The notes under the pieces were generated by a model that worked only from the letters and a program-made list of their open reading frames with translations, was not told the DNA's origin and made no database searches. Positions 23,703 to 26,896 of a DNA stretch of 64,000 nt are shown in pieces (position 1 is the stretch's first letter; each line of letters starts with the position of its first letter). The position numbers were made by a program, and so were the translations under genes. The stretch is from an uncultured Spirochaetaceae bacterium (GTDB lineage Bacteria; Spirochaetota; Spirochaetia; Sphaerochaetales; Sphaerochaetaceae), in the NCBI GenBank assembly GCA_944388955.1, contig CALXKJ010000008.1, positions 1-64,000 of the forward strand. The letters run 5' to 3'.

Positions 23703-23736
23703 AAAATCTCCTGTGTCTATCGATGCAGGAGATTTT
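23703..23736 (+). terminator. V-ATPase operon terminator
   Basis: AAAATCTCCTG (23703-23713) and CAGGAGATTTT (23726-23736) form a perfect 11-bp stem with a 12-nt loop. The A-rich and T-rich flanks make it potentially bidirectional. A smaller AAGAGA/TCTCTT hairpin lies just before it. Confidence 0.85.
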
Positions 23737-23751
23737 ATATTAATCATAGCA

Positions 23752-23800
23752 TTGCTAATAAATCTCAAGGAATATATACTTTATGTGAGAAATTTTCTCA
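23752..23800 (+). promoter_or_regulatory. Promoter and palindrome upstream of the methyltransferase fusion
   Basis: TTGCTA (-35, 23752-23757) and TATACT (-10, 23775-23780) are 17 bp apart. A palindrome TGAGAA-ATT-TTCTCA (23786-23800) lies at the expected transcription start, just before the GGAG ribosome-binding site and the ATG at 23813. It could be an operator or a small 5' hairpin. Confidence 0.7.
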
Positions 23801-23812
23801 TGTGGAGCTTGT

Positions 23813-26800
23813 ATGCTTTTAGATTTCAGACTTTCTTCGTATAGATCTTATGATAAGACAATGAGAATTTCCTTCCGAGGTGGAGATCTCAGCGAGAATC
23901 AGGAGACACTTCATGATGGCGTGCTTCCTGTGATAGGCATATTCGGCTCAGATGGAAGCGGAAGAGGGAGTGTGCTTAGGGCGCTTGAAGCTGTTGTATC
24001 GCTTGTTTCGCTTCCTCTTCTTTTCCCCCGTGCAGAGCTTCTTTCCAAACTCTCGGAGAAGCATTTCGGATCTGAGTGGTGTCCGTCATTCGCTATCACA
24101 TACAGAGGAAGGGAAGCCTTCTTCCGTCTTTCACTGGAGATAGAAGACGGAGTGATAAAAAAAGATGTTCTTGAGCGCTCTGGGAATGCAGACGGGCATT
24201 ATCAGGTGCTATATGAGAGAGCCGGTGATGAGATAAGCTATCATGGAAAACTCCGCAATCTCGGTGTAATCGATGTTCCGCAGGGTGTGCCATTGCTGTC
24301 ACTTCTGTACTCGGAGCATCCGGATAACCCGATCATCGAGGATGCATATTCATTCTTTGCCGATGGTTTCATGCTTCCGTCATCCAATATCGCTTTTGAA
24401 AGCCTCGATAAAGAGCGTGCTTTTACTGTGCTTCTTATGCTCAATGAGATGTCATTTGATGTGAGGAGAATCATCACGAAAGATGGGCATTCATATTTCT
24501 CATACAGCGATGACGACTCATTCCTTGTCAAGCTTGAAGAAGAGAGCGAGAGTCTGCAGATCCTTTTCCGTATCCTTCCATCGGTTCTTGAGGCTCTCAT
24601 TTCAGGAAAAGTCCTTGTTCTTCCTTCATTGCTTCCATCTCTCCATCCATCGGTTGAGGAGTATATTATAAATCTTTTCACAGACAAGGAGTCGAACAGG
24701 AAGAATGCGCAGCTTCTCTTTACATCATCCTCATTCAATCTCATGGATGTAAGGCTGATGAGACGGGATGAGATATACCTTGCTGAGAAGAAGGGAGGCA
24801 TGACAGAGCTATACCCGATACAGAATGTAAAGAATGCAGATGGCACATTGCTTCGTAAAGATGCCAGATTCCAGAAGAAATACTGGGAAGGCGATCTTGG
24901 TGCTCTTCCATCTTTCAGACATATAATCTCATGGAAGGATGTCATCAGGAAGGAGAGCGCAGCAAAGAAAAACCTCTTCAGTATCAATAACAGACGATAT
25001 CTCGGCAACAAGTTCAGGATAACAGGGTTTATACGCGAGATTGCAGATAAATACTGCGTCGGCGCTTCATCGTTTGCTGATATCTTCTCTGGAACAGGTG
25101 CAGTCTCCTATGCCTTCCGAGACAAGAAGCTTGTTCTCAATGATATACTCTATTCGAATTATCTTTCGAATCTTGCATGGTTCTCACCTGAAGTCTTTGA
25201 TTATGATAAGCTTTCCGGAATCATTGATGACTATAACAGTGTCCAGCCTTCTGAGGATAACTATTTCTCGGATAATTTCTCTGATACGTATTTCTCAAGA
25301 GGCAATGCAAGGAAGATCGGCTGGATAAGGGATGATATAGAGAAGCGATTCAGAAAAGGCGAGATAAACCTCCGGGAGAAGGCGATTCTTGTCACATCGC
25401 TTATGTATGCGATGGATAAAATCGCAGCGACATGCGGCCACTATGATGCGTGGCGGGCAAACGCAGATCTCTCGGAGCCGCTTGTTCTCAGGATGCTTGA
25501 TGTGGAAAATGGCAATGAAGGCAATGAGATATACACTGAAGATGCCAATATGCTTGTCCGCCGCATCAAGAGTGATATCGTATACATCGATCCCCCATAT
25601 AACTCCAGGCAGTATTCTGATTCCTATCATCTTCTTGAGAATGTTGCGAGATGGGAAAAGCCTGAAGTCTCCGGAAAAGCCAGGAAGATGGACAGGAAGG
25701 AAATCAAAAGCCTTTATTCGACGAATAAAGCCGCTCAGGAAATGAAGGATCTGATAGCGAATATCGACGCTGAGTATATTCTTCTTTCATACAACAATAT
25801 GGCAAAGAAAGGCGATGGCAGGTCGAATGCCAAGATAAGCGATGACGAGATTCTCTCGATACTCCGTGCGAAGGGTGAAGTCTCTGTCTTTGCAGTCCCG
25901 CATAAGGCCTTCTCCGCAGGGAAAAGCCATATTGAAGGCAATGAGGAGCGTATCTTCCTATGCCGTGTAAGAGAGAGAAAAGCACTGAAGAATGGCTATG
26001 TCTCATCGCCGCTTAATTATGCGGGAGGCAAGGGAAGGATTCTTGACGAGCTTCTGGATGCTTTCCCTCCATACTCAGACACTTTTGTCGATCTCTTTGC
26101 CGGTGGCTGTACAGTGGGAGTGAATGCTTCTGCGCGTAAAGTCATATTCAATGACTCTGATTCCCGTCTTGTTTCTCTTCTTCGTGAGATGCGCTCATGT
26201 GACAAAGAGCGATTCATTGCCGATGTATTTGATGTCATTGATAAATACGGCTTATCCAGAAGTGATATTCATGGTTATGAATACTATCATGCGGATTCAT
26301 CATCCGGGCTTGGGGAAGTGAATAAGGAAGCTTATAGAAAGCTTCGCGATGATTTCAATCATGAAGCTTTCGACGGACACACCAGGGCTGTGATGCTCTA
26401 TGTTCTTGTCGTCTATGCATTCAATAATCAGATACGATTCAATGATGAGGGGTATTTCAATCTTCCCGTCGGCAAGCGTGATTTCAATAAGCGCATGCAG
26501 GAAAAGCTTTCAGCATTCATTGACAGACTGAAAGCCCTCGATGCCGTCATCCTCGATTCAGATTTCCGCATAGTCGAGATTCCCGATGGTGCGTTTGTCT
26601 ATGCAGATCCTCCATATCTCATCACGACAGCGACATATAACGAGAAGAATGGCTGGACTGAAAATGATGAGACATCGTTGCATCTTTTGCTTGAGAATCT
26701 CGATAAACGCGGTATAAAGTTTGCATTGTCGAACACTCTCAAAAGCAGGGGGAAAGAGAACACATCTCTCATTTCATGGCTTGAGCGGCATCCTGAATTC

Positions 26801-26896
26801 CGCGTTCTGCATATCGACAGGAGCTACTCGAATTCCAATTACCATCTGAAGGACAGGAATGCTGAATCAGATGAAGTCCTGATTCTCAACTACTGA
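23813..26896 (+). CDS. Pseudo-ATPase fused to two D12-class DNA adenine methyltransferase domains
   Basis: A 1027-residue three-part protein. Residues ~1-375 align with AAA_15/AAA_21-type ABC-like ATPases (opening LLDFRLSSYRSYDKTMRISF; late block AQLLFTSSSFNLMDVRLM then RRDEIYLAEKKG), but the active motifs are lost: GSDGSGRGS (45-53) replaces GxxxxGKS, VLVLPSL (267-273) replaces the Walker B Asp-Glu, and SSS (305-307) replaces the H-loop His. Methyltransferase 1 has NNRRYLGNK (392-400), SAM motif FADIFSGTG (421-429) and DPPY (593-596). Methyltransferase 2 has LNYAGGKG (734-741), FVDLFAGG (758-765) and DPPY (932-935). Two fused adenine methyltransferases of ~640 residues recall M.FokI, which modifies both strands of an asymmetric site. 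No endonuclease gene is adjacent. The gene has its own promoter and abuts the converging MATE gene. Confidence 0.85.
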   Translation: MLLDFRLSSYRSYDKTMRISFRGGDLSENQETLHDGVLPVIGIFGSDGSGRGSVLRALEAVVSLVSLPLLFPRAELLSKLSEKHFGSEWCPSFAITYRGREAFFRLSLEIEDGVIKKDVLERSGNADGHYQVLYERAGDEISYHGKLRNLGVIDVPQGVPLLSLLYSEHPDNPIIEDAYSFFADGFMLPSSNIAFESLDKERAFTVLLMLNEMSFDVRRIITKDGHSYFSYSDDDSFLVKLEEESESLQILFRILPSVLEALISGKVLVLPSLLPSLHPSVEEYIINLFTDKESNRKNAQLLFTSSSFNLMDVRLMRRDEIYLAEKKGGMTELYPIQNVKNADGTLLRKDARFQKKYWEGDLGALPSFRHIISWKDVIRKESAAKKNLFSINNRRYLGNKFRITGFIREIADKYCVGASSFADIFSGTGAVSYAFRDKKLVLNDILYSNYLSNLAWFSPEVFDYDKLSGIIDDYNSVQPSEDNYFSDNFSDTYFSRGNARKIGWIRDDIEKRFRKGEINLREKAILVTSLMYAMDKIAATCGHYDAWRANADLSEPLVLRMLDVENGNEGNEIYTEDANMLVRRIKSDIVYIDPPYNSRQYSDSYHLLENVARWEKPEVSGKARKMDRKEIKSLYSTNKAAQEMKDLIANIDAEYILLSYNNMAKKGDGRSNAKISDDEILSILRAKGEVSVFAVPHKAFSAGKSHIEGNEERIFLCRVRERKALKNGYVSSPLNYAGGKGRILDELLDAFPPYSDTFVDLFAGGCTVGVNASARKVIFNDSDSRLVSLLREMRSCDKERFIADVFDVIDKYGLSRSDIHGYEYYHADSSSGLGEVNKEAYRKLRDDFNHEAFDGHTRAVMLYVLVVYAFNNQIRFNDEGYFNLPVGKRDFNKRMQEKLSAFIDRLKALDAVILDSDFRIVEIPDGAFVYADPPYLITTATYNEKNGWTENDETSLHLLLENLDKRGIKFALSNTLKSRGKENTSLISWLERHPEFRVLHIDRSYSNSNYHLKDRNAESDEVLILNY

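Follow-up and report, generated by a model that had tools for sequence, protein, structure and literature searches.

The single chain of M.FokI holds two adenine methyltransferases, each of which acts on one strand of an asymmetric site. A similar arrangement has been reported for MhoVII, which acts on GATG/CATC with one domain per strand of the asymmetric site, and among the systems compared a fused DNA-adenine/Dam pair always came with AlwI-family nucleases (PMC12898733). AlwI-family systems recognize GGATC, GASTC or GAGTC, and a related system recognizes GCATC (PMC9799307). AAA domains of the AbiLi group have been described as toxin-neutralizing partners in toxin-antitoxin and phage-defense pairs (PMC10440598). 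In the window analyzed here, a stretch of 64,000 nucleotides from an uncultured Spirochaetaceae bacterium, a single gene joins an AbiLi-derived domain to a methyltransferase pair of the AlwI type (Table 1). We hold with moderate confidence that its product is a solitary, restriction-free adenine methyltransferase acting on two strands, in which a non-hydrolyzing AbiLi domain would have a regulatory or dimerization role.

Table 1. Sequence features of the fusion gene and its upstream region (positions in the window).
Feature	Position	Strand	Basis or distribution
Fusion gene: AbiLi-like pseudo-ATPase + M1 + M2, 1027 aa	23813..26896	+	Single open frame; full-length homologues in 13 other species plus one contig-end-truncated
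Shine-Dalgarno GGAG	23804..23807	+	Read directly
Predicted N-terminal AbiLi-derived ABC-type pseudo-ATPase domain, residues 1-385	23813..24967	+	PDLC02335 AbiLi match; AF2 model; Rad50/PtuA fold
Methyltransferase domain M1, residues 389-722, DPPY 593-596	24977..25978	+	PDLC03373 E=1e-108; no variation in SAM and catalytic motifs
Methyltransferase domain M2, residues 730-1027, Dam-like, DPPY 932-935	26000..26893	+	PF02086, TIGR00571; T4Dam; Foldseek
Degenerate Walker A GSDGSGRGS, residues 45-53	23945..23971	+	GxxxxGK[ST] in 12/14 fusions, not in window copy
Destroyed Walker B VLVLPSL, residues 267-273	24611..24631	+	DE in 18/18 stand-alone relatives, 0/15 fusions
Destroyed H-loop TSSSF, residues 304-308	24722..24736	+	His in 18/18 stand-alone relatives, 1/15 fusions
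Retained RRDEI, residues 317-321	24761..24775	+	14/15 fusions (one RRDGI), all close-subfamily AbiLi
Retained RKDAR, residues 348-352	24854..24868	+	RKD in 15/15 fusions; RKDAR invariant in 14 full-length fusions
Putative operator palindrome TGAGAAATTTTCTCA, located downstream of the promoter and ahead of the ribosome-binding site	23786..23800	.	Exact match

Behind a ribosome-binding site, the gene runs unbroken from its ATG to the stop, one continuous frame as the original prediction had proposed, and the two D12 domains that it had assigned, each with a SAM motif and with DPPY at exactly the positions tabulated, were recovered: profile PF02086 scored 211 bits across two stretches of the protein. 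The same profile was found at two places in the host genome (107 and 116 bits), the fusion being its sole locus with a D12 domain. By NCBIfam, the flanking proteins were MutS2, uridine phosphorylase, V-ATPase, MATE, P-type ATPase and IspG, and no PADLOC match was obtained among the ten flanking proteins scanned; the predicted lack of a restriction gene within 10 kb thus holds for the neighbors examined. A hairpin (AAAATCTCCTG...CAGGAGATTTT, window positions 23703-23736) that separates the fusion from the gene for V-ATPase subunit K is, by eye, likely to be a terminator, which suggests that the fusion probably has its own promoter. The predicted full-length model was not reliable as to how the three domains are placed with respect to one another (pTM 0.44).

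The fusion was found in 15 of 48 genomes of one genus of gut spirochaetes related to Ca. Ornithospirochaeta, its host genomes being MAGs; related contigs were labelled uncultured Spirochaetaceae/Spirochaetales and Candidatus Ornithospirochaeta. The 14 copies other than that of the window, from species-level genomes, were 60-75% identical to it. Fourteen of the 15, window copy included, formed one full-length frame and the last was cut at a contig end. Since the junction was thus found again in 14 other genomes, 13 times complete, an assembly or frameshift artifact was ruled out. In a tree based on ntpA and ntpB, the fusion genomes formed one group together with an incomplete MAG (G006, 87% complete and broken at the locus) in which no fusion was seen; in the trees, the deepest node of the fusions had support that was not high or not given. 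Most fusion loci had common flanks: on one side the V-ATPase operon, patatin and ZIP, on the other MATE and a P-type ATPase; patatin and ZIP were missing at this place in the window. A sister clade was devoid of the fusion and, where its contigs reached, showed ZIP followed by ispG/uvrA without the fusion in between. Additionally, trees of the N-terminal domain and of the methyltransferases had 6 of 11 splits in common, versus 0.33 in shuffles. The ntpAB grouping, the fixed flanks and the agreement between these trees suggest that the fusion most likely arose in a single event and was then transmitted vertically, as a unit, at one chromosomal site. Beyond the genus, genome-wide and viral scans retrieved unfused methyltransferases only, although scans of this kind need exact conserved peptides and could miss distant fusions, and no record covering 80% of the fusion protein was present in the plasmid and phage collections. 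The original statement that no described system was known with this three-part order agrees with our scans, which revealed no other lineage with it.

Residues 389-1027 correspond to both halves of an AlwI-type IIS methyltransferase, and were 45-48% identical to plasmid enzymes of Staphylococcus, Lactococcus and Enterococcus. The best full plasmid matches were Dam-family genes directly followed by an AlwI-family endonuclease gene, the plasmid records annotating them as AlwI-family systems; one spirochaete harbored an AlwI-type system as split genes (54% and 46% identity). With an HMM built from four AlwI-family endonucleases, a nuclease of this family was found to adjoin nearly every unfused full-pair relative of the genome and viral scans, mostly downstream, and was absent from every fusion locus. 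The resemblance to M.FokI noted originally was correct in that a paired enzyme is expected on an asymmetric site, but plasmid annotations and HMM matches elsewhere placed the pair nearer to the AlwI family. Profile searches of the host genome, whose assembly is 95.6% complete so that absence is not absolute, retrieved neither RE_AlwI (PF09491), which was also absent from the genus, nor the FokI nuclease domain (PF09254). A FokI-type restriction-modification system was rejected on this ground, and LlaI, a lead taken from the literature, was dropped once the AlwI partner had become clear. By sequence, the pair derives from the modification enzyme of an AlwI-type IIS system that has lost its endonuclease.

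By sequence, both methyltransferase domains are intact and under strong constraint. Their SAM and catalytic motifs were invariant across full-length fusions, pairwise identity among fusions was 0.79-0.80 for M1/M2 versus 0.45 for the N-terminal domain, and dN/dS amounted to about 0.04-0.11 versus about 0.09-0.20 where dS was computable, these values being approximate only because of saturated dS. M2 was related to T4Dam (E=2e-44; Foldseek TMt 0.86-0.89). The T4Dam residues F111, S112, M114, R116, P126 and R130 read the ATC half of GATC; by residue count, F111, R116, P126 and R130 are identical in M2, and S112 and M114 differ. Genome composition for GGATC, GATC, GGATG and GASTC showed no contrast pointing to a motif, and since GGATC was neither depleted nor enriched, composition gives this motif no support; no methylation data for these gut spirochaetes were found. 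Several unfused AlwI-type enzymes are extended at the N terminus by a helix-turn-helix-like stretch, which in one of them, from Enterococcus, exceeded the Pfam cut-off (HTH_17, E=1.3e-8). A regulator may therefore have given way to the AbiLi domain.

The N-terminal domain matched the AbiLi profile of PADLOC (PDLC02335, E=1.7e-45), and its AF2 model (pLDDT 83.5, pTM 0.85) resembled Rad50 heads (Z 18.5; 267 residues at 3.5 A) as well as the PtuA proteins found in Septu and retrons (Z about 17.5). Of the AAA_15/AAA_21-like assignment first given to it, the ABC-type ATPase-like nature was retained, but AAA_21 remained below threshold (24.4 bits versus a cut-off of 27) and catalytic residues are lost. 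Compared with 18 stand-alone AbiLi-like proteins of these genomes, the Walker B glutamate was lost in 15/15 fusions and the switch histidine in 14/15; the window copy additionally lacks the Walker A Lys/Ser and the Walker B Asp, all three ATP motifs being gone. The intact set of Walker A, Walker B and H-loop by which AbiL is recognized was not found in the fusions. The 14 full-length copies showed neither frameshift nor deletion of the domain, and its central segment was shorter in several species. RloB, searched by HMM, was absent from every fusion locus and adjoined 7 of 8 stand-alone AbiLi genes of the close subfamily; no viral relative of stand-alone AbiLi was confirmed. As judged from its sequence, the domain is a full-length AbiLi that has lost its ATP-hydrolysis residues. 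It is a pseudo-ATPase under continued constraint that evolves faster than M1 and M2, and, given this pace, it could be partly vestigial. Further AbiLi-like ATPase genes were observed in the host genome (L226, G000:C1:103500-108500; L227, G000:C1:181000-192000), with weak RloB-like frames adjoining or nearby; they are unlinked to the window.

A palindrome, TGAGAAA-N-TTTCTCA, precedes the fusion in each of the 14 testable genomes and ends 13-36 bp upstream of its start, with one mismatch at most in 12 of the 14 and within poorly conserved surrounding flanks. The most diverged copies, with 3 mismatches, were those of L042 and L047, from two species placed as sisters by the N-domain tree. The palindrome was also found about 90-105 bp upstream of AbiLi at 7 of 8 close stand-alone loci, and a second, weaker copy about 30 bp upstream at 5 of the 8, while loci of the sister clade devoid of the fusion had no good copy. 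In the AbiLi operons L056, L058, L059, L213, L215 and L222, where a weaker copy often accompanies the upstream palindrome, the two were 63-73 bp apart, a spacing that might permit looping. Different upstream motifs seemed by eye to be shared among distant AbiLi-like genes (L214, L218 and L221 on the one hand, L217 and L220 on the other), as if each subfamily possessed an operator of its own. In G012:C16, an exact copy of the palindrome falls within a coding frame and was taken as chance.

The palindrome was probably inherited along with the AbiLi gene, as its putative operator. It could however be recognized by an unlinked transcription factor common to AbiL operons and the fusion instead of by the AbiLi domain, an explanation to which we grant somewhat less than an even chance. 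Sequence-specific DNA binding by AbiLi was not found in the literature searched, in line with such a factor, but the 2.1-Mb host genome holds one exact copy of the palindrome, at the fusion itself (about 0.01 expected by simple base probability), which would be unexpected for a separate regulator. Moreover, the fusion has no RloB beside it, which leaves the AbiLi domain as the factor common to the fusion and to AbiL operons. Autoregulation through binding of the palindrome by the AbiLi domain, a suggestion drawn from the shared cis elements only, is in our view just as possible as the unlinked factor. A shade more tentative is the broader scenario in which AbiLi-type ATPases are operator-binding autorepressors: in this clade, one of them would have been taken over, deprived of ATP hydrolysis and joined to an AlwI-type modification enzyme in place of the helix-turn-helix regulator of that enzyme, yielding a self-regulating solitary methyltransferase that uses a dead defense ATPase as DNA-binding and dimerization domain.

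In the preferred reading, that of a resident two-strand methyltransferase, M1 and M2 would methylate the two strands of one short asymmetric site and so mark the host genome. An ATC-type half-site would fall to M2 and the complement of this half-site to M1; candidate sites are GGATC, GCATC and similar ones. The AbiLi domain may pair two molecules in the way of ABC heads, limit expression by binding the inherited operator, and thereby substitute for the helix-turn-helix extension of several unfused enzymes. The mark would serve a resident function, such as gene regulation or protection against AlwI-like restriction, and not phage killing. Intact and constrained methyltransferases, the lack of a nuclease and long vertical retention argue for a resident modification enzyme rather than a defense effector, and the fusion probably serves to mark the DNA of its own cell and not to attack phages. 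Between the two roles first envisaged, that of a solitary epigenetic regulator is the better fit, considering the single origin, the fixed locus, the retention throughout the clade and the constraint on both methyltransferase domains.

Protection could also be the sole function, the enzyme shielding the cell from AlwI-like restriction borne by plasmids and phages of competitors and the AbiLi part acting as a passive tag for expression and dimerization. Several gut and rumen phyla do have AlwI-type systems, found on plasmids and contigs, but long clade-wide retention would need constant pressure and the continued constraint on the N-terminal domain would be left unexplained, so we regard this as unlikely. 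Still less probable is the other role first envisaged, a self-contained phage defense with the AbiLi domain as sensor of infection and switch of the methyltransferases, for example for over-methylation or for self/non-self marking with an unlinked effector. AbiLi, AriA and PtuA-type ATPases are indeed defense sensors (PADLOC matches), and ABC heads of the same fold act in Septu and retron effectors; however, the losses of catalytic glutamate and switch histidine, the absence of any nuclease or RloB partner at the fusion loci, and a clade-wide retention at a fixed locus that is unlike the patchy occurrence typical of defense genes all speak against it. As for the toxin-neutralizing role described for AAA domains of this group, the fusion has neither the ATPase chemistry nor the toxin any longer. 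Equally improbable is a functionless, decaying N-terminal passenger with M1-M2 alone of importance, since its lower identity, lost ATP motifs and shrinking central segment would suit such decay but frame and domain are unbroken in all 14 full-length copies, RRDEI and RKDAR are near-invariant, dN/dS is about 0.1-0.2 where computable and the predicted fold is intact.

The resident methyltransferase would be a case in which an Abi ATPase and a type IIS modification enzyme, both of them mobile defense modules, were joined and domesticated as a clade-specific gene, with both effectors, RloB and the AlwI nuclease, lost on the way. On this view, gut spirochaetes are predicted to bear a non-palindromic m6A mark. 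The palindrome, for its part, offers a testable candidate operator of AbiLi proteins, a group for which regulation is poorly described.

Compared with known systems, the predicted fold of the N-terminal domain is like that of Rad50, SMC and PtuA ABC heads (Z 15-18), but the fusion has neither their coiled coil arm nor an intact ATPase site. M2 is Dam-like, as in the T4 Dam/Dam family, but would be half of a two-strand enzyme and not an enzyme for a palindrome. M.FokI and MhoVII, like the fusion, have two adenine methyltransferases per chain, in these two enzymes one for each strand; MhoVII differs in that its M1 belongs to another class (YhdJ), and to our knowledge neither enzyme has been described with an ATPase-like domain. 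As to AbiL (AbiLi ATPase and AbiLii/RloB), the N-terminal domain can be aligned with AbiLi over its entire length, the C-terminal region of RRDEI/RKD included, and the upstream palindrome is common to AbiL operons and the fusion; the fusion differs by the lack of RloB, of the Walker B Glu and, with one exception, of the H-loop His, and by its link to methyltransferases. Likewise, AlwI-type IIS systems (PF09491 nuclease, fused or split M1-M2) are homologous to M1 and M2 over residues 389-1027, but they have an adjoining nuclease, whereas the fusion has none and carries an AbiLi domain where several unfused enzymes have a helix-turn-helix extension.
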